This document shows positions 1,903 to 62,026 of a stretch of 64,000 nucleotides of DNA, piece after piece. The notes below the pieces were generated by a model. The model had not been told where the DNA came from and did no database searches. It worked only from the letters and a program-made list of their open reading frames with translations. The stretch comes from Betaproteobacteria bacterium. GTDB lineage: Bacteria > Pseudomonadota > Gammaproteobacteria > Burkholderiales > Casimicrobiaceae. Each line of letters starts with the position of its first letter. Position 1 is the stretch's first letter. A program made the position numbers and the translations under genes. The stretch is taken from contig JAAFIS010000003.1 in NCBI GenBank assembly GCA_013298695.1, positions 248,001 through 312,000 of the forward strand, given 5' to 3'.

Positions 1903-1989
1903 TCGCCCTATCTATTGGGCGAACGAGCGACATTACATAGTTGGCAATTATGCAATAAATTTGCCAGATCGCCCGCTATAAACGGGGAT
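1903..1989. repeat. paired-palindrome element, copy 1
   Basis: Left palindrome 1903-1922 has arms TCGCCC and GGGCGA around an A/T-rich loop. Right palindrome 1968-1989 has arms ATCGCCCG and CGGGGAT. Centres are 66 bp apart and the 45 bp between them is unrelated to the other copies. The element ends five bases before the GTG start of the next gene, so its right arm (CGGGGAT) may also act as that gene's ribosome site. Confidence 0.8.
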
Positions 1990-1994
1990 GTATC

Positions 1995-2549
1995 GTGTTT
2001 GCCAAATGGCTGCAATACTTGAAAAGGCATCGGCGATCCTTGCCCGATGCGGGCGCGTCACTGGCGTCGGATCCATCGCCGATTGGTGCCGTTGTTTGTG
2101 TTCAGGAAATTCACAATCCGTCCATTGCAGCGGAACTGTTTCGTCGTAAATTCGCACAAGACATCCCAGATTTTCCCAAGCATTTCGTCGCGATGATCGG
2201 CGAGCAGTGTGCGGGTTATGTGCACTACACGGCGTGGCAGGGGGATTATTTGTGCGGGGGTTTGTGCATCGACGATCGTGTGTATCGATCGCTGGACGCC
2301 ACGCAACGCGCTTGGATTCGTGAACGTGGCGGCATCGCCGAAATCATGATGCGCGCAGCCCACGCGCAGCTCTCGGAAGCTCCGGCGATCTGGGGCTACA
2401 TTGGCGACAAGCAAGCGGAGGCAGTGGATCGCCGCGTTGGCTTCGTCCCAGTCATTGAGCCCTATCTATTCGCGATTTGGCAGCATGATTTGAGCGACGA
2501 ACAAAAGCGCGCACGTGCGGAGCAAGCGTTGAAGCTGGGGCCGTTTTAG
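1995..2549 (+). CDS. hypothetical protein, GNAT-like
   Basis: 184 residues from a GTG at 1995. I do not recognise a named family. The middle reads like an acyl-CoA N-acyltransferase fold: an AMIGEQCAGYVHYTAW strand-turn-strand (residues about 65-80), an acidic helix, and a C-terminal WGYIGDKQAEAVDRRVGFVPV segment. The last resembles the GNAT 'N-x-x-S/A-x-x-x-Y-x-x-x-G-F' end. The acetyl-CoA loop (Q/R-x-x-G-x-G/A) is not obvious; RERGGIAEIMMRAA (about 115-128) is the best candidate. The gene directly abuts a paired-palindrome element, whose right arm may supply the Shine-Dalgarno sequence. The downstream polysaccharide deacetylase is convergent, with a 14-base gap. The gene is real by codon structure; function is uncertain. 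Confidence 0.6.
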   Translation: MFAKWLQYLKRHRRSLPDAGASLASDPSPIGAVVCVQEIHNPSIAAELFRRKFAQDIPDFPKHFVAMIGEQCAGYVHYTAWQGDYLCGGLCIDDRVYRSLDATQRAWIRERGGIAEIMMRAAHAQLSEAPAIWGYIGDKQAEAVDRRVGFVPVIEPYLFAIWQHDLSDEQKRARAEQALKLGPF

Positions 2550-2563
2550 GTGCGCTCAAGCAC

Positions 2564-3397
2564 TCATGCGGTGAGCGAACCGCGAAGAATTTTGAGTAAT
2601 CCGTCTTTGCTTCGCCAATCGGGGCCAAAAACAAACCGCGACAGAAGCCAGCGATCTGAGTCAAGCGTGACGTAGCCGCTGGGGCCGCCGAACGCGGCGA
2701 TTGTTCCGTGTGCTTCGGCGTGTTGCGGCATGTACTCGAAGCGCATGTAGTCAGAGGCCTGCGTCCACGGATAGGCGAAAAGATGTGGCCGTCGCCCGCT
2801 CCTTGACTCAATGAAATTCGCCGCCGCTCGTACGTGTGTGTCGCATTCGACAAAGGTGTTAATCGCGAAAAAATCTCCGGTTTGTTGCGCTCGCTGAATC
2901 ACTGGCGACACCGCCGGATGGTTGTGATCCCAGCCGTGACTTTCAATCGTAATTAGGCCACTTGCGTTAGCGTCGTGCCACCAATCATCATTGAGCGCGC
3001 GCTGCGCTTGCATCGCGCCGTGTGCAATTTGCGCGCGTGCAGACGGCGCAGCGATCACAAAACTAGTGAGTTGAGCGAAGCGCCCGCTCGCGGTGAATTC
3101 GCGAAGTGACGTTGAGAAACTCTTCTGTGCGCCGTGCTCGGGATGGGGCAGGTCGCGCCAGTCGAAGTCGGTGCCATCGTCGCAGCTCAACGCAACCACC
3201 GGTTTCCCATGAACGCCAAAACCCTCGCGTTCGCCGCGCACCCAGCGCGCGACCTCAACGAGCGGCACGATTTCAAATCCGGCTTCGGAAATCGTGACTA
3301 AGTCGTCAGCAAAGGCAACCAGATCGTTCGTTTCATAGGTGTTGCCAAACACGTTGTAGCCGTGCCAAGTGAGCACTGGAATTCGATCTTGCCGCAT
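2564..3397 (-). CDS. polysaccharide deacetylase family protein (NodB-like)
   Basis: 277 residues. NodB-homology signatures are visible. The metal/catalytic acidic pair is in LSCDDGTDFD (Asp73-Asp74). The histidine motif is SHGWDHNHP (His154, His158, with a further His160). The later FAYPW motif lies in the expected place. The protein begins with PVLTWHGYN, a common opening for carbohydrate-esterase 4 proteins of this type. No signal peptide is evident, so it may act in the cytoplasm or its export signal is atypical. Family role: removal of acetyl or formyl groups from a sugar polymer using a divalent metal. It is divergent from the MBOAT/SGNH acyltransferase pair, with starts only 26 bp apart, which hints at a shared role in acylating or deacylating a glycan; that link is inference. 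Confidence 0.8.
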   Translation of the reverse strand: MRQDRIPVLTWHGYNVFGNTYETNDLVAFADDLVTISEAGFEIVPLVEVARWVRGEREGFGVHGKPVVALSCDDGTDFDWRDLPHPEHGAQKSFSTSLREFTASGRFAQLTSFVIAAPSARAQIAHGAMQAQRALNDDWWHDANASGLITIESHGWDHNHPAVSPVIQRAQQTGDFFAINTFVECDTHVRAAANFIESRSGRRPHLFAYPWTQASDYMRFEYMPQHAEAHGTIAAFGGPSGYVTLDSDRWLLSRFVFGPDWRSKDGLLKILRGSLTA

Positions 3398-3423
3398 GCA
3401 AACGATATTAGCATTGCGTCGGT

Positions 3424-4854
3424 ATGACTTTTGACTCGCTCACCTTCGCGCTGTTTTTCGCGATTGTTTTTCCTATCTACCTGCTGACACGCAGCTGGAG
3501 CTCGCGCAAGAATTGGCTCGTGTTCGCAAGCTGCGTGTTCTATGGATCGTGGAATCCGTTTTTTTTATTGCTGCTCGGATTCACGACAGTATTTGATTGG
3601 TGGGCTGCGCTGCACATTCATCGCGCAAACGACGAAAGGATTCGCAAGCGCTGGATGATCGCTTCGGTCGTCGCGAGTCTCTCGATTCTCATTTATTTCA
3701 AATACGCACAGTTTTTCGCAAACACTGCGATCACCGCCTTCGCGCTCATCGGGGTCACCTACAAACCGATTGATCTCGGCATCATATTGCCACTCGGTAT
3801 TTCTTTCTATATTTTTGAATCGATCTCTTACATCGTCGATGTTTACAAGCGACGCGTTGAACCGACAAAAAATTTGCGTGACTACAGCTTGTTCATGACG
3901 TTTTTCCCGCATTTAGTAGCAGGCCCGATCATGCGCTATCGTGATTTTTGCGAACAAATTGCCACGCCGCGCGTGGTCACCAGTCGCGGTATGGCGCTGG
4001 GCGCTTATCTCGTAGTCGCGGGATTGTTTCTCAAAATAGTCTGCGCCGATCACATGTTTGCGCCCGTGGTAAATCAGGTGTTCGCACCGGACTATGCAGC
4101 GGGCACGACAGCATCGTGGCTCGGCGCTTTCGCGTTTTCGTTTCAGCTGTTTTGTGACTTCGCGGGCTACTCGCTCGCAGCGGTTGGCGTTGCAATGATG
4201 CTTGGCTTTGCGTTACCGACGAATTTCGAGGCGCCATTTGCAGCGGTCGGCATCGCAGATCTCTGGAGACGTTGGCACATTTCGCTTTCCTCATGGATGC
4301 GTGATTACATCTACGTCCCGCTCAAAGGCACCCACCACAAAAACTCAGTCTACGCTTTGCTCGCCGCGTTTTTCACGTTTCTTATTTCAGGGTTGTGGCA
4401 CGGTGCGGAGTGGCATTTTGTGGTGTGGGGCGGACTGCACGGCGCGATGCTCGTGACCGAGCGGCTCATCGTCGCGTCGCCCATTGCGGCGATGGGCATT
4501 TGGCGTGCTCGCCCCATGCGTGCGGCGTTAGCGCTACTCACCTTCGTTTTGTTTTCGATCGCAGTTGTATTTTTCCGCGCGCCTGACTTCGCACTTGCGT
4601 GGTCTCGAATTGCCTCGATGTTCGGCGATGCGCCATCAAACGCAGCATTGTTTTCGTGGCATGGCGAAGCCAAGATTGCGCTCACCGGAATCCTCATTGG
4701 GTTATTGATTCACGCCGCATTGCGCCACCGATCAGGCTGGCAGTGGTTACCCAACACGCCGTGGATCGCTCGCACGCTGCTTCTTGCGTTTATGCTGCTC
4801 GCGATCATTCTCTCGCCCGGTAAAACGGCGGCTTTCATTTACTTTCAATTCTAG
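3424..4854 (+). CDS. MBOAT family O-acyltransferase (AlgI-like)
   Basis: 476 residues, a polytopic inner-membrane protein with many hydrophobic segments. The signatures of bacterial MBOAT acyltransferases (AlgI/DltB/PatA group) are clear: GISFYIFESISYIVDVYKR, FFPHLVAGPIMRY, a CDFAGYSLAAVGVA segment, DLWRRWHISLSSWMRDYIYVPLKG, and the active-site region ISGLWHGAEWHFVVWGGLHG with the catalytic histidine. By family knowledge it passes an acyl group (often acetyl) across the membrane to a periplasmic partner that loads it onto a polysaccharide. The partner is the next gene, three bases downstream. The gene is divergent from a polysaccharide deacetylase. The acceptor glycan is not identified; no alginate or cellulose genes are nearby. 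Confidence 0.92.
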   Translation: MTFDSLTFALFFAIVFPIYLLTRSWSSRKNWLVFASCVFYGSWNPFFLLLLGFTTVFDWWAALHIHRANDERIRKRWMIASVVASLSILIYFKYAQFFANTAITAFALIGVTYKPIDLGIILPLGISFYIFESISYIVDVYKRRVEPTKNLRDYSLFMTFFPHLVAGPIMRYRDFCEQIATPRVVTSRGMALGAYLVVAGLFLKIVCADHMFAPVVNQVFAPDYAAGTTASWLGAFAFSFQLFCDFAGYSLAAVGVAMMLGFALPTNFEAPFAAVGIADLWRRWHISLSSWMRDYIYVPLKGTHHKNSVYALLAAFFTFLISGLWHGAEWHFVVWGGLHGAMLVTERLIVASPIAAMGIWRARPMRAALALLTFVLFSIAVVFFRAPDFALAWSRIASMFGDAPSNAALFSWHGEAKIALTGILIGLLIHAALRHRSGWQWLPNTPWIARTLLLAFMLLAIILSPGKTAAFIYFQF

Positions 4855-4857
4855 AAA

Positions 4858-5886
4858 ATGGCGGCTAATCAAACCCCATCCGCTGCAAATTTTTGGTTCA
4901 GTGTGTTTGTCGCTGCCGTGATCGCTGCGACGGGCTGGTTTGCGTTTGAGCATTACTGGCGTGCTAAAGGCTACGTGCCTTCGGTGATGGACAGTAAAGA
5001 GCTGTGGTCGCAGCAGCGGGCGGCGGTTTCACGCGGTGGCGAGATTATCCCGGTCGCGCTGCTCGGGGCGTCGCGCATTCAATTTGGCATCTCACCCGCC
5101 GCCTTCAACGGTGAAGCGAGACGGTTGCGCGCGAACGCTAGTGCGTACATGCTCGCAATCAATGGTCATTATCCGATGGCCACCCTGCGCGATCTTGCGG
5201 CTGACGCCTCGTTTCGCGGCGTTGCAATCGTTGGCGTTGATTCGCGTGGCTTGCAGAAAATTCATCGCGAAATGCAGGCACCGTGGCCGCAATATTTCAG
5301 CCACGACTGGACGCCTGCGCGCAATTTGCATCGCACGTTGTTAACCGAACTCCAGCGCGTATCGATTGCAGCACGGCCTGATTTTTCGTGGTCGAATTTA
5401 CTCAATCGTCGGCTCAACAGTTGGGGACTTCCGCAACAGGAGTATGTGACATTCTTCGATGATCGATCAGGTGTAACGGACTACGCCCGAGTTAACGTGG
5501 AGGCGATTCGTGAGGCGCGAGTGCGCGATTTGAAAGATTATTACGCGACTACGTCAGCGATTTCGGCCTACCAGTGGCTTCGCGACAATGACGATGTGAT
5601 TGAGTGGGTGAAGGCCATCAACGCGCGCGGCGGACGGGTTGTCTTCTATCGCGAACCGATCTCCGGCGAACATCTCGCGCTTGACGAAGCGCGCTTTCCG
5701 CGCGCTCAGTTTTGGGATGCGCTTGCTGCAAAAATGCCGGCAACCTTCATCGACTTTCGTGACTATCCGGCGCTCAACTTCCCCACACCCGATACGTCAC
5801 ACATTGACGCGAAAGATGTGGATCAGCACACGCGAGCGCTGGTGCAGTTGCTGATAAACATGGGTGTGATCGCAACAAAAACGTAG
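4858..5886 (+). CDS. SGNH-hydrolase-like periplasmic partner of the MBOAT acyltransferase
   Basis: 342 residues. One N-terminal membrane anchor (about residues 11-30) leaves the rest in the periplasm. A GASR motif (block I serine, LLGASRIQFG) near residue 70 and a C-terminal PDTSHIDAKD motif (block V Asp and His) give the serine/aspartate/histidine set expected of SGNH/GDSL acyltransferases such as AlgJ/AlgX- or DltD-type partners. The start ATG lies three bases after the MBOAT stop with no good ribosome site, so translational coupling is likely. The pair forms a two-gene acylation unit: MBOAT supplies the acyl group and this protein transfers it. Overall similarity to a named family is weak to my eye, so the assignment rests on motifs plus context. 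It is convergent with mnmE, 24 bp away. Confidence 0.72.
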   Translation: MAANQTPSAANFWFSVFVAAVIAATGWFAFEHYWRAKGYVPSVMDSKELWSQQRAAVSRGGEIIPVALLGASRIQFGISPAAFNGEARRLRANASAYMLAINGHYPMATLRDLAADASFRGVAIVGVDSRGLQKIHREMQAPWPQYFSHDWTPARNLHRTLLTELQRVSIAARPDFSWSNLLNRRLNSWGLPQQEYVTFFDDRSGVTDYARVNVEAIREARVRDLKDYYATTSAISAYQWLRDNDDVIEWVKAINARGGRVVFYREPISGEHLALDEARFPRAQFWDALAAKMPATFIDFRDYPALNFPTPDTSHIDAKDVDQHTRALVQLLINMGVIATKT

Positions 5887-5910
5887 TGAGCGGCTTGCCC
5901 CGTTTTCGCG

Positions 5911-7281
5911 TCACTTGCCAATACAAAATCGCGAAAAAATCTCACCCAACAAATCATCAGCCGTAAATTCGCCCGTAATTTCGCCGAGCGATTCATGGGC
6001 AAGACGCAGCTCTTCCGCGAACAGTTCGAGCGCGATGTGATCAAGGTGTTGCTTTGCGGCGTCGATATGTGTGAGCGTTTTTTTCAACGCGGTCACATGA
6101 CGTTCGCGCGCGGAGAAGGTCCCGCCTTCGCGATGTTCGTAGCCGACGGCTTGAGCGATGGCATTGCGAAGCGTCTCGATTCCTGCACCGGTTTTTGCGG
6201 AGATCGGCAAGTTACGAGTAACGAGCGACGAGTGAGGCATATCGATGTCGCTCGTCTCTGTTTCGCGTCTGTTGCTTAACGTATCAATTTTGTTGCGAAC
6301 AATGATCGCGCGAAGTGAGTTTGGCAACTCTTCGGCGAGTTTCGCTATATCCGCAGCAACGCTAGCCGATTTCGCGTCGACCAATAACAGCGCAAGATCC
6401 GCATCGGCAATCGCCGCACGCGTTCGCTCGATGCCAATTTTTTCCACGGGATCATCGGTATCGCGCAAACCTGCGGTGTCGATGAATTCGACAGGCAAGC
6501 CATTTACGCTGACGCGCGCGCGCACGGTGTCGCGTGTTGTGCCTGCAATCGGCGTGACGATCGCAACGTCTTCACCCGCGAGTGCGTTGAGCAAACTCGA
6601 TTTGCCAACGTTCGGGGCGCCTGCGAGCACGACACGGATGCCGTCGTGCAGGAGCTGGCCTTGCGCGGCTTGTGCGATCACGCTCTCGAGCGCGGCGCGT
6701 GTGGAGGCGAGTTGTTCACGCGCTTTTTCTTGCTCGATAAATTCAACGTCTTCCTCAGGGAAATCGAGCGTGGCCTCAACAAACATGCGCAAACGGATCA
6801 AACGGTCCTGCAAGGTTTGAATGTGTTTGGAGAATTCGCCCGACAAGGATCGCACAGCAGCGCGGGCGGCGCTCTCTGTCGCCGCGTCGATGATGTCGGC
6901 GACAGCTTCGGCTTGGGTGAGATCGAGTTTGCCGTTGAGATACGCGCGCTTGGTGAATTCGCCGGGTTCGGCGTGTCGCGCGCCAAGTTCGATGGCGCGT
7001 CGCACGAGCGCTTGCAAGACGATGGGCGAGCCGTGCGCATGCAATTCCAAAACGTCTTCACCGGTAAACGACGCGGGCGCTTTGAAAAAGAGCGCGATAC
7101 CGTCGTCGATGATGTCGTTATTTGCACCGCGAAATTGCGTGTGTGTTGCGATTCGTGCGATAAGCGCTTTGCCGCAAATCGAAGTGGCTAACGATTCCAG
7201 CGACGATCCAGAAACACGCACGATCCCCACGCCACCGCGACCGGGCGGCGTTGCAATAGCGACGATAGTTTCAGCAGACAT
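5911..7281 (-). CDS. mnmE: tRNA uridine-5-carboxymethylaminomethyl(34) synthesis GTPase MnmE
   Basis: 456 residues, full length. The N-terminal tetrahydrofolate-binding domain opens with ETIVAIATPPGRGGVGIVRVSG. The G domain has the P-loop GAPNVGKSSL, the G2 region AGTTRDT, DTAGLRD and NKID. The C-terminus is FCIGK, the CxGK motif required for catalysis. With MnmG it installs the cmnm5 group on the wobble uridine of several tRNAs. It is the last gene of the conserved block rpmH-rnpA-yidD-yidC-mnmE, transcribed leftward. A paired-palindrome element and about 190 bp separate it from yidC, so it may have its own promoter or read through the element. Confidence 0.98.
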   Translation of the reverse strand: MSAETIVAIATPPGRGGVGIVRVSGSSLESLATSICGKALIARIATHTQFRGANNDIIDDGIALFFKAPASFTGEDVLELHAHGSPIVLQALVRRAIELGARHAEPGEFTKRAYLNGKLDLTQAEAVADIIDAATESAARAAVRSLSGEFSKHIQTLQDRLIRLRMFVEATLDFPEEDVEFIEQEKAREQLASTRAALESVIAQAAQGQLLHDGIRVVLAGAPNVGKSSLLNALAGEDVAIVTPIAGTTRDTVRARVSVNGLPVEFIDTAGLRDTDDPVEKIGIERTRAAIADADLALLLVDAKSASVAADIAKLAEELPNSLRAIIVRNKIDTLSNRRETETSDIDMPHSSLVTRNLPISAKTGAGIETLRNAIAQAVGYEHREGGTFSARERHVTALKKTLTHIDAAKQHLDHIALELFAEELRLAHESLGEITGEFTADDLLGEIFSRFCIGK

Positions 7282-7369
7282 GATTGCGAGTGATTAAACC
7301 TGAGTTCGACTGACAGAGGACGAAAGTCTGCGTGATGGCCCCATCATTTAAATCAGCGTAAAACAAAAA

Positions 7370-7456
7370 CGCCCAATCTAATTGGGCATAAGTGGCGTTT
7401 TATCGCACTATCAGTAGTTTATTTTTTACCATTCATCGCCCGAATAAATTGAGCGA
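7370..7456. repeat. paired-palindrome element, copy 2
   Basis: Left palindrome 7370-7389 (CGCCCAAT / ATTGGGC). Right palindrome 7434-7456 (ATCGCCC / GAGCGAT). Centres are about 66 bp apart. The left palindrome is also enclosed by a longer stem (AAAACGCC at 7366-7373 with GGCGTTTT at 7394-7401), which gives a terminator-like shape between yidC and mnmE. Confidence 0.8.
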
Positions 7457-7472
7457 TTTGCGCAAAAGCTGA

Positions 7473-9176
7473 TTAGCGTTTCATGAGTGCCTGAGCGGCG
7501 GCTTGCTCTTTCTCAAGCATCTTGTTGATCTTCCATTGCTGTGCAATTTGTAGGACGTTCGAAACCGTCCAGTAGAGCACTAATCCTGCCGGGAAGAACA
7601 CAAACAACACCGCGAATGCAACCGGCATGTACATCAATACTTTTTGCTGCAACGGATCCATACCCGGTGCAGGCGGCTGCAACTTGGCTTGCGCAAACGC
7701 AGTGATCGCATAAACGATCGGCAACAAAAACCAAGGATCAGGTGCGGAGAGATCTTTGATCCAGCCGATCCAAGGCGCATGACGCAATTCAACCGCGCCA
7801 CTCAATACCCAAAACAGCGCAAAGAACACCGGAATCTGCACGAGGATCGGCAAGCAGCCGCCCATCGGATTGATCTTCTCTTTTTTGTAGAGCTCCATCA
7901 TCGCTTGATTGAGCTTCGCGCGATCACCCGCGTAGCGCTCTTGCATCTCTTTCATCTTCGGCGCGAAGAGCTTCATCTTGCCCATGCTGCGTCCGGCCGC
8001 AGCGTTGAGCGGATAAAACACGGCCTTCACGAGCACGGTGAGCAACACAATCGCCCAGCCCCAATTGCCGACGAGGCCGTGAAACCACTTGAGCAACCAA
8101 AACATCGGCTTCGCGATGAATGCGAAGATACCGTAGTCGACCACGCGATCGAGTTCTGGCGCAGCGGCGATCAGCAAATCCTGTTCTTGCGGCCCGACGT
8201 AGAGCGGCACGGTCACTTTTGCAGTGGCGTTTGGTGCAATATCTCCGAGCGGTGTTTTGAGTCCGGCAAGGTACGCATCGCCCTGCACTTTGCTCATGTA
8301 GTAATCGCGTGCGCTACCTGCAGTGGGCAACCACGCGCCGACGAAATAATGCTCGACCATACCGATCCAGCCGTTCGTTGAGCGCTCCGTCGGGATACCC
8401 GGCTTGCCTTTTTCAACGTCTGAAAAACCGACCTTCTGATATTTTTTTGCCTCAGTGAACAGCACGGGGCCAAAAAAAGCGCCGCCGCCCATCGGCTGTT
8501 TGATGCCCGTATCAACGCTGTCGCGCTGAAGCTGGAAATAGGCGTTCGGCGCCATCGTCGCTGCGCTCGAGTTGGTGACTTCGCGGGTGACGTCCACCAC
8601 ATATTTGCCACGCTTGAACGTATAGATCAGGTCACTTTTTCCGCCGGCAGAGAGCGGCGTGGTCAGGCGCACTTCGAGCGACTCTGCGCTGCCCAAATCG
8701 GTCGTGGTGGAAGTGCGCGTGTAGAGCGCGTAGTGATCGGGCATGCCCGCGCCGGTAAGCCCGCTTTGCGCAACGTGTTTGCGCTTATCGGTTTTAGTTA
8801 ACACGCGATACGGCAGCGTTTTGTCCGTCGTGTCACCATGCTGCTTGAGCGCAACATCTTCAATCACGCCGCCGAGCGTGTTGATTGTGTAATCCGCGAG
8901 ATCAGTTTTTACGACGAAGGTTTCGCCTTTGAGCTCAGTGGTGGGCGCGGCTTTGGGCGGTTCACCGCCCGCCGTTGCAGCGGCATTTGCAGGCGATGCG
9001 CCGGGCACATCAGCAGGCTTCGCAGTCGCCGCTCCCGCAGCATCAGACTTCTTCGCCTCTTGCTTTGCCACTTGCGCGGCAGGCGGCTGCGGATTGTTTT
9101 CTTTCTGCCAAGCCTGGAACAAAAACAGTCCCGACATGGAGAAGATGACGAAAAGTACGATGCGCTGAAAGTCCAT
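7473..9176 (-). CDS. yidC: membrane protein insertase YidC
   Basis: 567 residues, the long Gram-negative form. The N-terminal transmembrane segment (RIVLFVIFSMSGLFLFQAW) is followed by a Pro/Ala-rich linker and a large periplasmic domain. The C-terminal five-helix insertase domain begins around residue 355 with LLKWFHGLVGNWGWAIVLLTVLVK. It includes GCLPILVQIPVFFALFWVL and FPAGLVLYWTVSNVLQIAQQW, and ends in a basic tail. It inserts inner-membrane proteins alone or with SecYEG. It lies 85 bp downstream of yidD in the rpmH-rnpA-yidD-yidC order. Confidence 0.98.
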   Translation of the reverse strand: MDFQRIVLFVIFSMSGLFLFQAWQKENNPQPPAAQVAKQEAKKSDAAGAATAKPADVPGASPANAAATAGGEPPKAAPTTELKGETFVVKTDLADYTINTLGGVIEDVALKQHGDTTDKTLPYRVLTKTDKRKHVAQSGLTGAGMPDHYALYTRTSTTTDLGSAESLEVRLTTPLSAGGKSDLIYTFKRGKYVVDVTREVTNSSAATMAPNAYFQLQRDSVDTGIKQPMGGGAFFGPVLFTEAKKYQKVGFSDVEKGKPGIPTERSTNGWIGMVEHYFVGAWLPTAGSARDYYMSKVQGDAYLAGLKTPLGDIAPNATAKVTVPLYVGPQEQDLLIAAAPELDRVVDYGIFAFIAKPMFWLLKWFHGLVGNWGWAIVLLTVLVKAVFYPLNAAAGRSMGKMKLFAPKMKEMQERYAGDRAKLNQAMMELYKKEKINPMGGCLPILVQIPVFFALFWVLSGAVELRHAPWIGWIKDLSAPDPWFLLPIVYAITAFAQAKLQPPAPGMDPLQQKVLMYMPVAFAVLFVFFPAGLVLYWTVSNVLQIAQQWKINKMLEKEQAAAQALMKR

Positions 9177-9261
9177 GGTGGGCTTATCGATTCAATCAAA
9201 GAAAGTCTGCGTCAACTCACGAAGCGCACAACCGCGCACGCTGTAACTTGATGAAGAATTT

Positions 9262-9546
9262 CTACTTCTGTGCCGCTACTTTTTCGGGCACCGGATCAAA
9301 GCCGCCCTCGTGCCACGGTTGGCATTTGAGGATTCGCTTTGCGCCAAGATAAGCGCCCTTCGCCGCGCCATGCGTTTTCACCGCGCCCATCGTGTATTCA
9401 GAGCAGCTCGGGAAGAAGCGGCAACGCTGGCCGAGCATCGGACGAATGCCGTAGCGATAGCCCTTGATGAGTGCGATCAGTGCGCCTTCACCGAGCGTGG
9501 GCTGGGAACCGTTGGTCGCGTTCATCATGTCAGCGTTCGACTTCAT
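9262..9546 (-). CDS. yidD: membrane protein insertion efficiency factor YidD
   Basis: 94 residues. The family core is GYRYGIRPMLGQRCRFFPSCSEYTMGAV followed by HGAAKGAYLGAKRILKCQPWHEGGFDPVP, including the conserved FxPSCSxY and C-x-P-xxxGG-DPVP motifs. The start ATG at 9546 overlaps the rnpA stop codon (ATGA-type junction), so translation is probably coupled. A start slightly further in (MMNATNG) is possible. It works at the inner membrane in support of YidC-mediated insertion. The start is only seven bases from a paired-palindrome element that lies inside the end of rnpA. Confidence 0.95.
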   Translation of the reverse strand: MKSNADMMNATNGSQPTLGEGALIALIKGYRYGIRPMLGQRCRFFPSCSEYTMGAVKTHGAAKGAYLGAKRILKCQPWHEGGFDPVPEKVAAQK

Positions 9547-9974
9547 TTCGCATCGCCCAATAATACTGGGCGAGAGGGAGATTTCTTCTTAATATCGAAA
9601 TCGAGCGAATGTTCCCACTCTGCCCTAATTGACAGGGCGTCGCTTAATTGTGCTGTTGACGCGAGCCGTACAACGTAGGCGTACGCGGGGAGCGCGGGTC
9701 GGCGCAAACGAAACGCTTCACGGAGTCTGCGTTTAATCGCGTTTCTCAACACCGAGGTTCTCGCGTTTTTCTTGCTGATCATCATGCCCAGCTGTGGTTG
9801 CGCGGGCGCGTTTACAAGAGGGCGTGTTGCGCTTTGCGACGAATCGGTAGACGCGCCAGTATCAACGCGATACACCCAGAGAAATTTGCCGCGGAAGGGG
9901 CGGGTTTTGAGCGCGCGCGTGAACGCGTCCGGCGTTAGAAGCCGGGCTTCGCGCGGGAACCCGGCTTCGCTCAT
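9543..9974 (-). CDS. rnpA: ribonuclease P protein component
   Basis: 143 residues. The conserved parts are FPREARLLTPDAFTRAL near the N-terminus and the RNR-like motif KNARTSVLRNAIKRRLREAFR, which contacts the RNase P RNA (rnpB lies at 34.8 kb). It helps process the 5' ends of pre-tRNAs. It follows rpmH by 43 bp. The protein is longer than the usual 110-125 residues. Its last 32 or so codons (after TAQLS) are read through a paired-palindrome element at 9552-9640, so the tail DALSIRA...LLGDAK appears to be repeat-derived rather than ancestral. This is a sequence observation; its effect on function is unknown. Confidence 0.96.
   Translation of the reverse strand: MSEAGFPREARLLTPDAFTRALKTRPFRGKFLWVYRVDTGASTDSSQSATRPLVNAPAQPQLGMMISKKNARTSVLRNAIKRRLREAFRLRRPALPAYAYVVRLASTAQLSDALSIRAEWEHSLDFDIKKKSPSRPVLLGDAK
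9552..9640. repeat. paired-palindrome element, copy 3 (inside the 3' end of rnpA)
   Basis: Left palindrome 9553-9573 (TCGCCCA / TGGGCGA). Right palindrome 9620-9640 (GCCCT / AGGGC). Centres are about 67 bp apart. Unlike the other copies it is translated: it encodes the C-terminal extension of RnpA and ends just before the rnpA stop and the yidD start. Confidence 0.8.
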
Positions 9975-10017
9975 GCGTGCTTGCGTGTGCGCTCGCGCAA
10001 ACGGCGAGCGCGAGGCA

Positions 10018-10152
10018 TTAGGCTGAGAGAACCTTGCGGCCTTTGGCGCGACGACCGTTGATGATGCCGCGACCTGCTTTGGTGGACATGCGAGCGCGGA
10101 AACCGTGGTTGCGCTTACGACGGATAACGGAAGGTTGGAATGTACGTTTCAT
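10018..10152 (-). CDS. rpmH: 50S ribosomal protein L34
   Basis: 44 codons plus a stop. The translation starts [20 protein letters not shown] and ends [12 protein letters not shown], an unmistakable bacterial L34. It is the first gene of the rpmH-rnpA-yidD-yidC block. In many bacteria dnaA and oriC lie directly upstream and divergent; here the upstream neighbour is instead a DMT-family exporter read in the same direction. Confidence 0.98.
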
Positions 10153-10251
10153 GATTCTCGGGGTGCGATTTCCGCAGTGAACAAAAATCGTTCGCCGCTA
10201 CGCCAGAAAGATTGGTGAAGGTGCCTGCGCAAAATCGCAGAAAAGCCTTGA

Positions 10252-10257
10252 ATTATA
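10252..10257 (-). promoter_or_regulatory. putative -10 box for rpmH
   Basis: A perfect TATAAT on the minus strand, about 95 bp before the rpmH start and overlapping the stop codon of the upstream exporter gene. I could not find a good -35 hexamer at 16-18 bp, so this is only a candidate. A strong promoter is expected for L34. Confidence 0.4.
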
Positions 10258-11137
10258 GCGTTTTTGGTGGAGTTTTCGGCCTAATGAGCCCGAGTGTTAA
10301 CGCCGTGCCCAAGAGAACGATACCGCCGCCAATCCACATCGGCGTGGTAACGCCTTCATCGAGTAACGCCCAACCCCACAGGGCGGCAAACACAGGAATC
10401 AAAAAAGTCACTGAAGATGCTTTTTGCCCGCCGAGCCGCGCTATTAGGCGGAAATAGATAACCAGCGCAATTGCGGTGGCGAGCACCGAGAGCAAAATCG
10501 CCGCGCCCCACGCCTTGGCCGACGGCATCGCGCTGGGCCAAAACGCAATCGCAAACGGCAAAATCATCAAGCCACCCGCAGCCTGGCTGCCCGCTGCGAC
10601 TGCCATCGGCGGCAAATTCGAGAGCTTTCGCTTGGTGTAATGCGACGAAAAACCGTACGCTAACGTGGCGATCAAACCGGCAATGATCGCCAAACCCGAG
10701 CCGCCCGGCTTGAAATCCACCTGTCCCCAAGTAAGCACTAACATTCCGAGCGCGCCCAGTGCTAAGCCAATCCACTGCCGACGTGTGAGCGATGCTTTCA
10801 ACCAGATCACTCCCAGCAGCGCCGCCCACAACGGGGTTGTAGCGTTCAACAGCGACGCGAATCCAGCGGTTAACGAGAGCGACGCGTAGGCGAGTAACGT
10901 GAATGGCACGAAGGAATTGGCGACGCCAATCACTGCAAGTTCGCGCACATGCGCTCGAAGCCCGCGGAGCCCGCCCTGCATCCACACGAGCGGGAGCAAA
11001 CATAGCGCCGCAAGCCCCGCGCGAATTCCGATTAAGGCAAACGGACCGAATTCAGGCGTAGCGACGCGCATGAAAAGAAACGACGCGCCCCAAATGGCCG
11101 AGAGGAAGAAGAAGTCGAGGATGTCGGAGGATTTCAT
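10253..11137 (-). CDS. EamA/DMT-family exporter
   Basis: 294 residues with about ten hydrophobic segments arranged as two EamA repeats of five helices. The first begins DFFFLSAIWGASFLFMRVATPEFGP; the second begins near GLAIIAGLIATLAYGFSSHYTKRKL and ends WGWALLDEGVTTPMWIGGGIVLLGTALTL, the typical repeat end. This superfamily exports small metabolites such as amino acids or their analogues across the inner membrane; the substrate is not predictable. It lies just upstream of rpmH in the same direction, with the rpmH -10 candidate overlapping its end. Confidence 0.9.
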   Translation of the reverse strand: MKSSDILDFFFLSAIWGASFLFMRVATPEFGPFALIGIRAGLAALCLLPLVWMQGGLRGLRAHVRELAVIGVANSFVPFTLLAYASLSLTAGFASLLNATTPLWAALLGVIWLKASLTRRQWIGLALGALGMLVLTWGQVDFKPGGSGLAIIAGLIATLAYGFSSHYTKRKLSNLPPMAVAAGSQAAGGLMILPFAIAFWPSAMPSAKAWGAAILLSVLATAIALVIYFRLIARLGGQKASSVTFLIPVFAALWGWALLDEGVTTPMWIGGGIVLLGTALTLGLIRPKTPPKTL

Positions 11138-11196
11138 GGTTTCAGTCGGTATGGAATCAGAGTGCTGTCGGGACGCAACTAAGTCATTGGCGTTCC

Positions 11197-11682
11197 CTAA
11201 AACACAATTCCCTCCAAACGCAACAAAAACTCTTTCTTATCCAATCCACCCGCATAACCCGTCAACGTGCCATTCGCACCGATCACACGATGACAGGGCA
11301 CCACAATCCCAATCGGATTGCGGCCATTCGCCGCGCCAATCGCGCGCACCGCTTTCGGATTGCCGATCGCCGCCGCTTGCTCGCCATACGTTCGCGTTTG
11401 CCCATAAGGAATTTGGGTGAGCGCTTTCCAGGCCGCTTTCTGAAACTCCGTGCCTTCTGGCGCGAGTTTCACCGTGAAACTTTTCCGTGTACCCACGAAA
11501 TACTCGGTGAGCTCTTGTCGTAATTGCAAGAACACGGGAAGACTCGGCGAGTCGATCCAATCATCGTGCATCGCAGGCACATATTTGCCGCTCACCACAT
11601 GCAAATCGGTGATTGCATCGTCAGTGGCAATTGCCAACAACGCGCCCATCGGCGAATCAAAGTGAGTAAAAAACTTTTTCAT
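11197..11682 (-). CDS. ogt: methylated-DNA--protein-cysteine methyltransferase
   Basis: 161 residues from ATG at 11682, chosen because AAGGA lies eight bases upstream; an ATG at 11697 is the longer alternative. The active-site motif is IVVPCHRV with the acceptor Cys130. Other family motifs are IPYGQTRTYGE, AVRAIGAANGRNP and GYAGGLDKKEFLLRLE. It repairs O6-alkylguanine by moving the alkyl group onto its own cysteine, a suicide reaction. The neighbouring upstream gene is an Ada-like/AlkA fusion, so this is a small alkylation-damage repair locus. Confidence 0.95.
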   Translation of the reverse strand: MKKFFTHFDSPMGALLAIATDDAITDLHVVSGKYVPAMHDDWIDSPSLPVFLQLRQELTEYFVGTRKSFTVKLAPEGTEFQKAAWKALTQIPYGQTRTYGEQAAAIGNPKAVRAIGAANGRNPIGIVVPCHRVIGANGTLTGYAGGLDKKEFLLRLEGIVF

Positions 11683-15391: not shown

Positions 15392-15425
15392 TTTACGTGA
15401 TTCTGTGGAGTCAGCTTTGCGTACT

Positions 15426-15514
15426 ATCCCCCAATTTAATCGGGCGATCGCATCGTAAATTGGAGTTACAGATATTTCAATTAAAGTTGATACTTGCCCA
15501 TATTTACGGGGCGA
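15426..15514. repeat. paired-palindrome element, copy 4
   Basis: Left palindrome 15426-15448 (ATCCCCCAATTTAATCGGGCGAT with imperfect arms, so written here only as ends ATC..CC and GG..GAT). Right palindrome 15493-15514 (TGCCC / GGGGCGA). Centres are about 66 bp apart. It sits in the convergent gap between cca and the alpha/beta hydrolase. Confidence 0.75.
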
Positions 15515-15527
15515 TGGCGCATGAAGC

Positions 15528-16379
15528 TTATACATTCATTCTGTTCGCGATATGCGCGAAGAGCTCACTGTCCGCGCGAGTGAGTTGATCGATGATGGTG
15601 AAGTGATTCAGATCTGCGAGTGTCCATTCGTTAACGTCGTTCCAGTGAGTGCCGATGAGTTTATTTTGTCGATGAAACTCTTCAAGTTCTGCACCGCCGA
15701 CGCAGGCGGTGAATGGGCAATCAACGCGACGTTTGCGATACGCCGGACTCATCGCGAGTGCTTCTGCGTTGGAAAGTTTGAGTGCGTCATTTAAGTAAAT
15801 CGGCACCAGCGGTTCGAGATCGAAAAGACCGCTAATGGAGGTTGCAGAAACGAAAGGCGCGTTGGGCAAACCGCGCGACGTCCAATCGGTTGTCATGCAC
15901 CACGCGGTGAGATGGCCACCCGCAGAATGCCCTGCAAGCGCTATCCGTTCGCGATCAATGTGCAAGTCGTGTGCGTGATTCCAAACGTGTGCGACTGCGG
16001 TTTCAATTTCGTCAGCGATGCCGCGAATTGTCGTTTGTGGACACAGCGTGTAGCCCGCGATCACTGCCGCAAATCCGTTCTCAACAAACGGTTTTGCGAT
16101 CACGCTCCAATCGTCCTTCCACAAACGCTGCCAGTAGCCGCCGTGAATGAAGAACAGTGTTGGCCACCCACCATCAGGTGACGCGCCTTGCGGTGTGAAC
16201 ACATCAAGCAAATTGCGTTCGCCAGTGCCGTATGCGAGGTTACGCGCGCCGCCTGCGGTTGTGCGAATCGTCTCGCTCTCGCGCTGCCAACGCGGCAACA
16301 GCGTCGTCATCCAATCCGGAGCCGCGAGACCGTTGTTGTAGCGACGAGCGAGTTCTTCGAGCGGTAAATCTGGAATCAT
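15528..16379 (-). CDS. alpha/beta hydrolase, arylformamidase/esterase-like
   Basis: 283 residues. The oxyanion region is FFIHGGYWQ (residues 77-84) and the nucleophile elbow is GHSAGGHL with Ser152, the pattern of the hormone-sensitive-lipase/kynurenine formamidase group. The C-terminus has GTHWNDVNEWTLADLNHFTIIDQL, with a histidine in the expected place for the triad. The opening EELARRYNNGLAAPDW resembles the kynurenine-formamidase-like family. Substrate is uncertain: no tryptophan degradation genes are adjacent. It is followed upstream by a DMT exporter three bases away, so the two are probably cotranscribed. Confidence 0.82.
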   Translation of the reverse strand: MIPDLPLEELARRYNNGLAAPDWMTTLLPRWQRESETIRTTAGGARNLAYGTGERNLLDVFTPQGASPDGGWPTLFFIHGGYWQRLWKDDWSVIAKPFVENGFAAVIAGYTLCPQTTIRGIADEIETAVAHVWNHAHDLHIDRERIALAGHSAGGHLTAWCMTTDWTSRGLPNAPFVSATSISGLFDLEPLVPIYLNDALKLSNAEALAMSPAYRKRRVDCPFTACVGGAELEEFHRQNKLIGTHWNDVNEWTLADLNHFTIIDQLTRADSELFAHIANRMNV

Positions 16380-16382
16380 TGC

Positions 16383-22914: not shown

Positions 22915-22927
22915 AGCCTCGCCGCTA

Positions 22928-23018
22928 CATCCCCTACTTTATTGGGCGACAGAGAATTTTTCGGTGTAAAGCAACAGTACGTATAAATTTGATAAACGCC
23001 CGTTACATTAGGACTGCA
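22928..23018. repeat. paired-palindrome element, copy 5
   Basis: Left palindrome 22928-22950 (CATCCCC.. / ..GGGCGAC, imperfect). Right half 22997-23018 (CGCCC / GGAC, degenerate). Spacing matches the other copies (centres about 66 bp). It lies upstream of the rpoH regulatory region. Confidence 0.6.
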
Positions 23019-23047
23019 CGGAAATAGAATATTGTTAATTTCACAAA

Positions 23048-24426: not shown

Positions 24427-24553
24427 GACACAAAAGTTTTCGAGCCGATAGTTCAGCGCTCGATGGTGCTAGATGGAACGCTCGAAAACCATCGCAACGC
24501 AACACGCGCGAAATTGTCGGTTGTCGTGACGGCCACGATAAAACCTAAGGTCA

Positions 24554-24644
24554 CTTAGTCTGGAAATATAGGGCATACAAGCTGTTTCAACTAATAGTCG
24601 AAAATTGTACTTTACTGCCTTATCGCCCAATTAAATAGGGCGCT
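24554..24644. repeat. paired-palindrome element, copy 6
   Basis: Right palindrome 24622-24644 is a good copy (ATCGCCCAAT / ATAGGGCG). The left partner 24554-24576 is degenerate (only ..ATAGGGCAT recognisable). Spacing fits the family. It lies between tRNA-Lys and the end of the lipid-modification operon. Confidence 0.6.
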
Positions 24645-24662
24645 ACCCTAAAGAGTTGATTG

Positions 24663-35123: not shown

Positions 35124-35253
35124 ATTCAGCGAATCCGCGTATCGCAACCAGCGTGTCGGCGCACCACGGTCGTGTGGATTCTCAAGCGTTGCATCGCTTA
35201 GGCAATTCGCGCCCGGCAGCGATTAGGTGCGAAACATCAAATAGCTTAACCAG

Positions 35254-35339
35254 ATGCCCAATCTATTGGGCGTAGTCGCTTTTTCTATTGCGTTTCGTTT
35301 GCGCATAAAAAATCGCGGGTCGCCCAATAAAAGGGGCGA
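35254..35339. repeat. paired-palindrome element, copy 7
   Basis: Left palindrome 35254-35273 (GCCCAAT / ATTGGGC). Right palindrome 35320-35339 (TCGCCC / GGGCGA). Centres are 66 bp apart. It lies between rnpB and the convergent end of chpA and could serve as a transcription end for either. Confidence 0.8.
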
Positions 35340-35364
35340 GTCCGCGATGATGTTGTGTTTCAAG

Positions 35365-55025: not shown

Positions 55026-55045
55026 TATTTAACATTGGATCGCAA

Positions 55046-55130
55046 TCGCTTATTTAATTGGGCTAACATCTCTTACTGCATAATTATCAAGAATTACAAA
55101 AAACCACGGGTTTGCCCCATTGGATCTAGC
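55046..55130. repeat. paired-palindrome element, copy 8
   Basis: Left 55046-55065 (TCGC..ATTGGGCTA, one arm decayed). Right 55112-55130 (TGCCCCATTGG.., decayed). Centres are 66 bp apart. It lies between dapF and the LpxR-like gene. Confidence 0.55.
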
Positions 55131-55152
55131 TTTTAATGGATAGGTTGACAAT

Positions 55153-56250
55153 CTACAGGGGTCCCGAAATGGTGATTGAGCCATATTTCGGCGTAGTCAA
55201 CTGCCCGTTGAACTCACGGGTTCGGTAAACGCGGACAAAAGCTAGTTTGTACTTTTTGAAATTGAACGCGACACCTGCTGCGACGTCAGCCACAAAATTT
55301 TTCTTGTCGACGCTATGGGAATCGCGAATGGTGTTCCCGTCCAAGAAAATATTGCGAGCGATCGCCCGACCATCGACGGACACGAACACATGGGCACCAA
55401 TATCGCGAGTGAACTGTAGCGCGCCTTGCTTGGGGCGCGGCGCCGAATTGTCGCCCGCTGGGCGAATCGGTGACGTTCCAAAATCGTCCGGTAAACCCCA
55501 GCCGAGTCGAGCTTCAAAGCCAGCGTTGGCATACGTTGCAACGTTTCCTAAAGATAAACCCGCGTGTGGAATCACGTCGATACCAAAACCGCTGCGAATG
55601 TTGTCTTGTGCAAAGGCGTCATAGCGATACTTGCGTTCGTAGACAAGCTGAGCGCCGAACTCGTTGCCAAGTTGATTGGCCCACCCGTTAAATTGCTCAA
55701 TGCCGCGCGCGCGATGCACAAAGTCTTGTATTTGCTTCGCGCGCGACCATGGGCCGACAACGCCGAAGTTCAGCTCATATGAATCCAGTCGATACGATGA
55801 ACGCGTGTTGTATCCGAAACCGAGATAGGTCCAGCCCGCGTACGGACGATCATCGCTCACCAGATCAGCGCGCTTCTTGTCGCGCGGGGTAAACATTGCC
55901 TGGCCCAATGTCACCGTGACGTTGCCTTCGACTTCTTCTTTACCAATCCGGATCGGATACACCGAATCAAACACCTGGCCGACGCGCTGCAGCCAAAGAG
56001 GCAAACACGGATCCTCCTGAAAACTGCGCAGATTCGGTGACGACCAAGCGAGCTTCACACCGTTGGTGTAGTCCTGATCTCGATTGGCGAACAAGTCATT
56101 GTCAATCGTGAATTTATAGGTGCCTTCGTATTTGGTCACCATGTTGAACGGTGTATCGGTGTCGAGGCAGCGGATATCGGTCTGAGCCAACACGGGAAGC
56201 GTAAAGCCGAATGTTGCGAGGAGGGTTGCGAAGTGCTGCGTGTGTTTCAT
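55153..56250 (-). CDS. LpxR-family lipid A 3'-O-deacylase-like outer-membrane protein
   Basis: 365 residues from ATG at 56250, which begins a clean signal peptide (MKHTQHFATLLATFGFTLPV then LAQ). LpxR marks: YKFTIDNDLFANRDQDYTNGVKLAW (the Asn-Asp pair and YTNG motif), DDRPYAGWTYLGFGYN, and alternating beta strands to the end (KYGSITISGPL). By family knowledge it is a 12-strand barrel that removes the 3'-acyloxyacyl chain of lipid A. It lies downstream of glycan-modifying genes read in the same direction, which fits a role in surface remodelling. Confidence 0.88.
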   Translation of the reverse strand: MKHTQHFATLLATFGFTLPVLAQTDIRCLDTDTPFNMVTKYEGTYKFTIDNDLFANRDQDYTNGVKLAWSSPNLRSFQEDPCLPLWLQRVGQVFDSVYPIRIGKEEVEGNVTVTLGQAMFTPRDKKRADLVSDDRPYAGWTYLGFGYNTRSSYRLDSYELNFGVVGPWSRAKQIQDFVHRARGIEQFNGWANQLGNEFGAQLVYERKYRYDAFAQDNIRSGFGIDVIPHAGLSLGNVATYANAGFEARLGWGLPDDFGTSPIRPAGDNSAPRPKQGALQFTRDIGAHVFVSVDGRAIARNIFLDGNTIRDSHSVDKKNFVADVAAGVAFNFKKYKLAFVRVYRTREFNGQLTTPKYGSITISGPL

Positions 56251-56303
56251 TCTGTGTTGCAATATCTTCAGGGTTGAGGGTCGAGCAAAACGCAAGCTAC
56301 CGT

Positions 56304-57062
56304 TTAGCGCCGATACATCGCACCAAAGCTGCTGGGTGACGGAGTTGAGGCGCGTTTTGCACTTTGCAGCACGTCCCACTCGTACTCCTTCCAGCGCACA
56401 TAGCGGTCAAATACGTTGATGGGTACGGAGAACGCCTCCGCGCGTGCCATCGACTCTTCGCGAAGATACCAACGATTCAACCCGTCAAAATAGACCGCCT
56501 GATATCCACCGGCGATCATCAGCGGCTCGAATTCATCCCAACATGGCGTTGGTTCGTTTGGCAGTGTTGCTTCAATAACAACCACCCACGGGCGCCACCG
56601 CTGAAAGTCCATCCCCCGAAGCACCGCCGCCTCAGCGCCCTCGACATCAATCTTGAGAAAGTGGATGTCACCCACCTGTTGATCCAACAAAACTGAGGCG
56701 AGACGCTCAGTCGGCACTCGTCCGATTCGGGTTTGCAGCCCATGTTTTGAAGCAACGCGAAGGGCCTCAGCGTTCAGCGAAGATAGCCCAGAATTCTCAA
56801 CAAAGTGGAAATCGGCCATTCCAGCGCGGTCGCTAAGGGCCAAGTTCAAATTAATGTCGCGAGGGCGTTCGCGCAACATGGCCGCAAAGTAGGCTGGATG
56901 CGGTTCGATGCTGATTCCGCGCCAGCCGCTGTCATAGAAATGCTTGGTCACCGAGTCGATTTTGGGCTCCTGCGCGCCAACGTCAACATAGAACCCGTTG
57001 ACAACGTCGTGAAGCAAACGCCGAAGCAACACGTCCTCAAAATTCTGCGCGTAACTGACCAT
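56304..57062 (-). CDS. FkbM-family methyltransferase
   Basis: 252 residues from ATG at 57062 (MVSYAQNFEDVLLRRLL, the common FkbM opening); a GTG at 57119 is the longer alternative. The SAM-binding domain has GFYVDVGAQEPKIDSVTKHFYDSGWRGISIEPHP, then LKIDVEGAEAAVLRGMDFQRWRPWVVVIEA. The C-terminal region has GGYQAVYFDGLNRWYL. Such enzymes O-methylate sugars or natural products. It clusters with another methyltransferase and a glycosyltransferase, so a sugar on a surface glycan or glycoprotein is the likely target (inference). Confidence 0.92.
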   Translation of the reverse strand: MVSYAQNFEDVLLRRLLHDVVNGFYVDVGAQEPKIDSVTKHFYDSGWRGISIEPHPAYFAAMLRERPRDINLNLALSDRAGMADFHFVENSGLSSLNAEALRVASKHGLQTRIGRVPTERLASVLLDQQVGDIHFLKIDVEGAEAAVLRGMDFQRWRPWVVVIEATLPNEPTPCWDEFEPLMIAGGYQAVYFDGLNRWYLREESMARAEAFSVPINVFDRYVRWKEYEWDVLQSAKRASTPSPSSFGAMYRR

Positions 57063-60452: not shown

Positions 60453-60605
60453 TGCTGCGGGAGAAGATGTTTCGATAACACCAACGTGTCGTCGATAGCG
60501 ATCCCCCTCGATCAAGACTGCGTATGAATCGCTTTTGCTCGTGGCCGAGCCCGTTCATTTCCAAGCGCCTTGTTGTTGCCGAAAGTGTTTTGCCTTGACT
60601 TTACC

Positions 60606-61880
60606 TTAGGCCCGCACCGCACCGTCGCCAAAAACAATCCATTTTTGCGTGGTGAGCCCTTCGAGTCCGACAGGGCCGCGTGCGTGAAGTTTATCGGTTG
60701 AGATGCCGATTTCAGCACCTAAGCCGTATTCGAAACCGTCGGCAAACTGCGTGCTTGCATTGATCATCACACTCGCGCTGTCAACTTCGCGCAAAAAACG
60801 TTGCGCATGGCTCCAGTGTTCGGTGATGATCGCATCGGTGTGGTGTGAGCCGTAGCGCTCAATATGATCGATGGCCTCGTCGAGATTCGTGACAATCTTG
60901 ATCGATACGATCGGTGCCAGAAACTCGGTTGACCAATCTTCTTCGCTGGCAGGCTTCACGTCGTGCGCAGCCAGTACGCTGCGAGTGCGCTCACAGCCAC
61001 GCATTTCCACACCTTTATCGGCGAAGATTTTTGCGATACGAGGAAGCACGTCATGGATGCGTGCTTCGTGCACCAATAAACTCTCCATTGCGCCACACAC
61101 ACCGTAGCGCCGGGTCTTCGCGTTATCACAAACGCGCACCGCTTTTTCTAAATCGGCGTGTTCGTCAACGAAGATGTGGCAGTTTCCGTCGAGATGTTTA
61201 ATCACCGGCACACGCGCATCCGCGCTAATGCGCTCGATTAAGCTCTTTCCGCCGCGCGGAATGATGACGTCGATGTATTCGGGTCGCGTGATCATTTCGC
61301 CGACCGCTTTGCGATCCGTGGTTTCCACCACTTGCACGATGCTTTCGGAGAGTTTCGCCGCTTTGAGCCCAGCACTGATGCACGCGGCTATCGCTTGATT
61401 GGATCGTGCAGCTTCAGAGCCGCCGCGCAGCACAGTGGCGTTGCCGCTCTTCAAACAAAGGCCCGCAGCGTCGACCGTCACGTTTGGGCGCGATTCATAG
61501 ATGATGCCGATCACGCCGAGGGGGACGCGCATCTTGCCGACCTGAATGCCGCTCGGACGCGTGTTCATCGAAGTAATTTCGCCTACCGGATCGGGCAATT
61601 GCGCTATTTGCCGCAGGCCATTGGCCATCGAAGCAATGGTTTTTGACGTGAGCTTTAAGCGATCAATCATCGCCGCCGACAAGTCCGCCTTCATCGCGTC
61701 GCGAACGTCGGCTGCGTTTTCTTCGAGGATGTGGGCGTCGCGCTTTTCCAATGCGATTGCGGTTTCGAAGAGTGCCGCGTTTTTCTGTGCCGTGCTGGCG
61801 CGAGCAATGGCGCGGGATGCGGCGCGTGCGGAGCGCCCCACCAAATGCATGTATTCAATAACGTCGATTAACTTATTCAT
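60606..61880 (-). CDS. proA: glutamate-5-semialdehyde dehydrogenase (gamma-glutamyl phosphate reductase)
   Basis: 424 residues. Marks: [67 protein letters not shown], the catalytic cysteine in [15 protein letters not shown], and the C-terminal [12 protein letters not shown] and [39 protein letters not shown]. Second step of proline synthesis, using NADPH. proB is not adjacent. It is divided from the downstream glycan genes by about 150 bp. Confidence 0.97.
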
Positions 61881-61939
61881 CGTTGCCCGATTTTACGCGA
61901 GCAACGAGACAGATCACGCGATACCAGCTCTATCGAGCT

Positions 61940-62026
61940 TCGCCCAAATCAATTGGGCGACAAAGACTAAGCTTTGTCTCTTCGAGGCGACGCCTTAACT
62001 TGCTTGTCGCCCAATTAAATAGGGCA
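61940..62026. repeat. paired-palindrome element, copy 9 (best-preserved)
   Basis: Left 61940-61960 (TCGCCCAA / TTGGGCGA). Right 62007-62026 (TCGCCC / GGGCA). Centres are 66.5 bp apart. The spacer also contains a small stem (GACAAAG / CTTTGTC, 61959-61979). It lies between the proA start and the ABC substrate-binding gene stop. Confidence 0.85.

Follow-up and report, generated by a model that had tools for sequence, protein, structure and literature searches.

The 64-kb window analysed here (by which we mean the whole stretch, part of a genome of 4,076,941 bases that we label G000) carries nine copies of an interspersed element in which two short palindromes, set about 67 bp apart, form the core of a single unit, 120-140 bp long, with dyad symmetry. 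Copies lie chiefly close behind the 3' ends of genes, and in related genomes they often recur at the same places. From this anatomy, this spacing, the placement at gene ends and the sharing of sites, we infer that a protein may bind and bend or wrap the DNA and that the sites may act as boundaries. In other words, our tentative reading, and quite possibly the right one, is that the element is an assembly site for a putative two-fold-symmetric, DNA-bending protein complex at the ends of transcription units.

Interspersed palindromes usually resemble one another, whereas these combine a rigid layout with a nearly free spacer and often sit at the same gene ends in relatives. If a protein complex does read them, the genus would possess a dense, sequence-positioned boundary system that could be mapped directly. 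The nearest relatives, judged through one protein of the window, are metagenome assemblies of Burkholderiales or Betaproteobacteria (one of them labelled Casimicrobiaceae), and the carrier group is represented solely by environmental genomes. By title or opening lines, none of the papers listed for REPIN/RAYT systems, for intergenic palindromes with nucleoid proteins, for Casimicrobiaceae, for the literal palindrome or for Lrp wrapping gave an account of the element.

Abundance and Spacing of the Element

An earlier note on this DNA had named nine loci with paired palindromes, and all nine are present within a few bases of where it placed them. Our anchors were 52 single-palindrome places among the matches listed for two patterns, the window's own being omitted, and the partner of an anchor was the second palindrome that fitted best no more than 180 bp from it. 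A partner stood at 66-68 bp in 36 of the 52 (18 at +67, 14 at -67, 2 at +66, 1 at -66 and 1 at -68), the remaining 16 lying at scattered single distances. At 66-68 bp, 45 copies had a partner scoring 9 or more; the 39 whose partner stood at exactly 67 were stacked for the consensus. A profile built from stacked copies, none from the window, with reversed sequence as the control here and below, gave the nine held-out window copies 39-90 bits, against 10.4 for the next place and no more than -12.9 for the reversed window. Exact palindromes of the form CGCCCWA-N(3-8)-TWGGGCG occur 65 times genome-wide and never in the reversed control. A chance origin of the nine loci is excluded.

For wider counts we used 537 kb of the genome, parts of it surrounding the window or a RAYT gene and the majority contiguous and picked irrespective of copies. 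Palindrome-only pairs less than 400 bp apart in this sample (n=53) fall 22 times at 67 bp, 5 times at 66 and twice at 68, with the other distances shown occurring once each; that is, the peak near 66 bp that the earlier note had expected genome-wide is there, sharp and centred on 67, in place of an even spread. With a profile refined on those same stretches, the sample holds 125 copies of at least 10 bits (1 in reversed sequence) and 106 of at least 20 bits (0 reversed), which scales to an estimated 805-950 copies per genome. The average of one copy per 7 kb that had been given is true of the window, and the sampled genome is denser. In 153 kb of C1, a profile trained on the C16 stretches found 36 copies that reach 10 bits, with none in the reversed control.

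Anatomy of the Element

MAFFT alignment of 52 copies gave 122 columns, exactly the length of each copy. Read from outside inward, the consensus is YARCTTTW (about 15 bp outside the palindrome), TAT, CGCCCAATTWAATTGGGCG, ATAG, WTTTA and the centre TTATCGATAA, followed by the mirror image. Conservation reaches some 15-25 bp beyond each palindrome, is symmetric over about 138 bp and is absent past about 70 bp from the dyad; within a palindrome, the arm that faces the dyad is the better conserved (5.6 vs 3.5 bits). The fixed spacing claimed for the nine loci stands, and the claim that the spacers are unrelated does not, since the spacer has a weak, two-fold-symmetric consensus of its own.

How rigid is this layout? 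Among 140 pairs of half-elements, 71 are offset in the canonical way, compared with 6 at -1, 2 at +1 and 1 at -2, and most of the others are one palindrome matched by both halves. Gapped copies are rare: only 3 further candidates turned up in intergenic gaps that lack an ungapped copy (reversed control 0). Across 106 copies from the genome, 26 high-information columns stand against 30 near-random ones, and in those 30 the copies are 26% identical, as random sequence would be. The strict spacing, the few gapped copies and the randomised free columns support the proposal, made in the earlier note, that selection acts on geometry.

Counted from the dyad, AT-rich patches recur at about 3, 13, 23, 33.5, 44 and 54 bp, roughly one helical turn apart, and in block shuffles (blocks of 3-5 bp) the helical phasing, with a period of about 10.1, gives p 0.006-0.013 in the genome itself and p 0.010-0.028 in G005, a member of the same genus. 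There the element has another version (21 copies), ATCAGCTTTTT..GCCCATT..AATTGGGCT with the centre AAAAGTCGACTTTT, and each species indeed has its own. Even so, the AT/GC profiles of the two genomes agree at r=0.87 at shift 0 despite differing bases (for example, the centre TTATCGATAA against AAGTCGACTT). An AT/GC pattern that is kept while the bases change suggests that DNA shape is what is read.

As a separate observation, the outermost palindrome bases (aligned positions 0 and 85) are correlated, with C:G in 18 and A:T in 18 of the 106 copies, hinting at two subtypes within the genome.

The symmetry, the length of some 130-140 bp and the helical variation in GC recall the DNA-gyrase motif of E. 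coli. The elements could, on that likeness, be hard-wired strong gyrase sites, where DNA wraps on gyrase around the dyad behind genes, in places where positive supercoils gather. The account of the E. coli motif (PMC6379681) gives it as 130 bp long, degenerate and with a 10.75-bp period, its sites lying downstream of transcribed units with an attraction there that is not hard-wired; our element has a period of about 10.1 and is far more sequence-specific. For the strong site of phage Mu, which is likewise symmetric, about 130 bp long and helically varied in GC, the dyad was placed at 17877/17878 from cuts on both strands (PMC11626157). The right arm of Mu matches our AT profile (r 0.52-0.54) when shifted 5-6 bp outward, but at the true cleavage dyad this essential arm is unmatched (r about 0, rank 37222 of 73300), which is to say that the helical phase is off. 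At pBR322-990, with the dyad where we take it to be, the best fit of the left arm is in phase (r 0.25-0.29) and that of the right arm lies 4 bp outward, a mixed picture. Since the phase is about half a turn off where the fit is best, we do not, on the limited evidence of these two known sites, assign the element to gyrase, and we consider such an origin unlikely. The carboxy-terminal domain of GyrA, 85-98% identical to that of G000 in 11 congeners and the same at 308 of 318 residues between G005 and G012, is uninformative.

Placement at Gene Ends

Gene context in the 537 kb comes from a home-made gene caller, which called 85-88% of the sequence coding. Of the 107 copies of at least 20 bits, 49 lie in tandem gaps and 27 within predicted open reading frames (ORFs), while 22 are in convergent gaps and 9 in divergent ones. 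The median distance to a flanking 3' end is 9 bp (n=93), and to 5' ends, 99 bp (n=67). Copies in tandem gaps are nearer the 3' end in 42 of 49 cases (p 4e-7), and in 7 of the 93 3'-end cases the distance is -2, at which the stop codon would be formed by the motif's own outer TAR. Among gaps of at least 100 bp, an ungapped copy is present in 20 of the 37 that are convergent, in 50 of the 151 tandem and in 9 of the 50 divergent ones (convergent vs divergent, p 0.0006; convergent vs tandem, p 0.02).

Might the palindromes work instead in the RNA of 3' untranslated regions, where two hairpins would make up a structured RNA or an intrinsic terminator acting in both directions? They could form 8-bp hairpins, and they are placed past stop codons. 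In our alignment A1, pairing reached 79.6% against 76.2% in shuffles (0 of 500 as high) and covariation 0.150 against 0.050-0.085 in slid controls. Most rows of A1, however, had been picked for one intact palindrome, which itself creates pairing, and five of six slid controls show more two-sided changes than the actual structure. In a set selected by profile, palindrome-arm pairs number 894 against 865.7 expected (z 1.35), and pairs over the whole element, 2553 against 2450.8 (z 2.7). Further, the T-rich block of the consensus begins about 9 bases past the hairpin, and no Rfam match at gathering scores falls on the elements, rnpB and a tRNA being the only ones in the window. Compensatory pairing this weak makes a folded RNA unlikely; the arm counts speak against the two-hairpin RNA offered in the earlier note, and we think an RNA-level explanation, terminator included, very improbable.

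Intrinsic terminators at a threshold of -5 kcal were predicted at 12 of 87 gene ends with an element, at 19 of 106 and 8 of 39 without one, and at 18 of 130 inside operons, so that in these stretches gene ends with and without elements show no contrast. At a stricter threshold, terminator-like sites stand at 10-18% of gene ends outside operons and 5% inside. Such sites are hardly enriched in positions 1-20000 of the window (40, against 32 with a standard deviation of 5.5 in shuffles).

Distribution and Persistence Among Congeners

A sequence-only model of the element, built from this genome, matches 12 of 16 congeners (G007 once and weakly) and none of 100 other relatives, and when run on 399 genomes of the order, it found only the genome itself, four congeners and a lone weak match in G387 (E 4.5e-5). 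It misses divergent versions: among the four congeners without a match, G013 and G012 carry elements by the G005 profile. A contig assigned to G013 has three at 44-75 bits, and G012 has two weaker variants at 21-23 bits (reversed controls 0). Absence outside the genus therefore means absence of close versions only. The versions missed by the genome's own model and seen with the G005 profile lie at L190:247, 5387 and 17575 and at 16194 and 20754 of the G012 stretch; the G012 variants retain the centre AAGTCGACTT and the ends, and their palindromes differ.

With any of three profiles at a threshold of 14 bits, G002 has 9 copies in 100 kb, G005 has 3 in 80 kb, G009 4 in 15 kb, G010 7 in 58 kb, G011 6 in 60 kb, G006 2 in 16 kb, G012 2 in 40 kb and G004 0 in 20 kb, with 0 in every reversed control. 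Across G005, a single contig, the 84 places among the matches listed are evenly spread (Kolmogorov-Smirnov p 0.81). Copy 2 of the window had no match in phages.

Do the copies stay where they are? In 16 of 31 testable orthologous gaps of the window, some resting on a single flanking gene, a congener has an element at the same site: 5 of 5 in G002, 4 of 4 in G009 (one of them scoring no more than 13 bits), 3 of 5 in G010 (one at 18 bits), 2 of 5 in G005 and 2 of 4 in G011. The 16 same-site pairs agree at 226 of 416 high-information positions (54%) and at 136 of 480 low-information ones (28%), where unrelated copies of the genome agree at 59% and 26%. The sequence of the element thus appears to have turned over at these sites, with the motif and the length alone persisting. 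No pair among the 106 copies stands out as similar (the best, at 63%, is about the expected extreme), and the nine window copies have no near-identical sibling among the places scored in the genome (40 of 184 candidates), the next best being 86% over 42 bp. Taken together, the recurring sites, the randomised free columns, the rare indels and the lack of a near-identical sibling favour selection in place on DNA geometry over repeated arrival. Sites are gained and lost too.

The chief competing history is an old mobile miniature family, REPIN- or MITE-like, that has lost its transposase (or whose transposase goes unrecognised) and whose survivors landed harmlessly past stop codons. In published accounts (PMC3116915, PMC3733652), the REPIN/BIME elements of Pseudomonas and enterobacteria are much alike in outline: inverted palindromes near 70 bp apart, in hundreds of copies, extragenic, in tandem or convergent gaps and 3' of genes, with REP doublets of the GI type 71 bp apart (PMC3116915). 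Information far beyond what locating a site needs, a density that ranges widely in congeners and same-site copies no more alike than unrelated ones would all suit such an origin. There are differences too: our element has a conserved dyad centre and outer motif, shows weak pairing, shares many sites in place with G002 and G009, and has neither near-identical copies (among the nine of the window and the 106 of the genome) nor a GTAG/CGTC tag in its consensus next to the palindrome, the flanks being TTAT outside and ATAG inside (CTAT toward the palindrome on the other strand). Indels are rare although the free columns are randomised. No clear target-site duplication was seen in 106 elements under 280 settings: the best count, 4 against 0.8 expected, falls within the element itself (51 bp from its dyad), and 2-mers at 70 bp number 13 against 6.9. 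Nor was a linked RAYT transposase seen, as the earlier note had suggested looking for: of 20 RAYT loci examined among 44 listed matches, 1 has an element nearby, a weak one of 18 bits, and G008 carries elements and has no RAYT match. ERIC, another intergenic element of many copies, is an imperfect palindrome of about 127 bp whose copies are much more alike than those here and whose sequence is different. A mobile past is possible, and we are doubtful of it.

A Putative Assembly Site at the Ends of Transcription Units

We return, then, to an assembly site read at the level of DNA. The putative complex would contact both palindromes and the dyad centre, bending or wrapping the DNA over about 120-140 bp. 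Copies would thus lie as markers at the 3' ends of transcription units and would probably serve as boundaries there, either by stopping read-through and head-on transcription or by offering supercoil handling a fixed point. Three readings had been offered for the paired palindromes at the outset; a symmetric complex of protein and DNA is the best fit, a two-hairpin RNA fits poorly and a REP-like pair matches in gross anatomy only. More daring is the thought of a genus-wide, hard-wired element of bacterial chromatin, a bending or wrapping complex that a symmetric code some 130 bp long would position and that would insulate genes or fix supercoils; this we put forward as a speculation that may turn out wrong.

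Several observations weigh against an assembly site, and we set them out together. To locate the sites, about 12 bits would be enough, yet the profile contains about 49, an excess that points either to several contacts in one complex or to common descent of the copies and leaves room for an old mobile origin. The helical phasing is moderately significant, with a power that falls from 0.58 to 0.27 when the palindromes are masked, and in G005 the best period, when left unrestricted, is 7.8 instead of 10. Density differs strongly within the genus and no element was detected in G016, which makes the element dispensable. Occupancy of sites is full only in G002 and G009 and nil in G006 (0 of 2), G004 (0 of 3) and G012 (0 of 3). 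Copies that share a site in two species resemble each other no more than unrelated ones do, so that repeated arrival at one place, instead of selection there, may be the explanation. A quarter or so of the sampled copies (the 27 of 107 above) lie in ORFs called by our own caller, and the test for complementarity with terminators came out empty. Finally, no protein was found. In the Lrp/AsnC family (91 of 92 listed members in 17 genomes, one G013 member being left out), no orthologue group tracked, by eye, the presence of the element according to the sequence-only model, whose absences are unreliable.

Copies in the Window

The nine copies and, for copy 2, the parts of the core are set out in Table 1.

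Table 1. Positions of the element copies in the 64-kb window, with profile scores and surroundings
Feature	Position	Score (bits)	Remarks
Copy 1	1888..2003	41	First palindrome shorter by one base (18 bp); between DUF2147 gene and ORF without Pfam match
Copy 2	7355..7470	90	Directly past yidC stop codon, before mnmE (Pfam)
Copy 3	9539..9654	59	rnpA 3' end (Pfam); sole window copy clearly coding
Copy 4	15413..15528	68	Between convergent poly(A) polymerase-like and alpha/beta hydrolase-like genes
Copy 5	22915..23030	45	About 220 bp upstream of sigma-70-family gene
Copy 6	24542..24657	62	Left palindrome decayed; just past stop of ORF 24663-25088(-); tRNA-Lys on other side
Copy 7	35239..35354	39	Between rnpB and end of chpA-like gene
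Copy 8	55031..55146	56	Decayed arms; just past stop of ORF 55153-56379(-), before dapF (Pfam)
Copy 9	61926..62041	68	Between aldehyde-dehydrogenase-family gene 60606-61880(-) and end of ORF 62081-63148(-)
Palindrome 1, example (copy 2)	7370..7388		Consensus CGCCCAATTWAATTGGGCG
Dyad centre, example (copy 2)	7408..7417		Consensus TTATCGATAA
Palindrome 2, example (copy 2)	7437..7455		67 bp from palindrome 1

Taken copy by copy, the sharing of sites is uneven. G002 and G009 share the positions of copies 2 and 3. The gap of copy 1 has an element in G002 and G005 as well, and G009 has one (13 bits) after the same left neighbour. The gap of copy 4 is occupied in G002, G005, G009, G010 (18 bits) and G011 and empty in G004 and G012. 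With one flank only to go by, G002 has an element 231 bp upstream of the orthologue of copy 5's sigma-70-family gene, and the element adjoins the same gene as copy 9 in G010 and G011 (one flank each). The gap of copy 8 also holds an element in G010. The site of copy 7 is not conserved in G005 and G010, where the element lies upstream of rnpB (L133:1456-1541 in G005, L138:1295-1380 in G010) and not downstream of it, as in the window.

Two smaller observations concern particular genes. The copy at the 3' end of rnpA, present in the genome itself and in G002 and G009, shows that the motif can coexist with a reading frame. Outside the window, a copy at G000:C18:241075-241193 lies just past gyrA, whose match ends at 241019.

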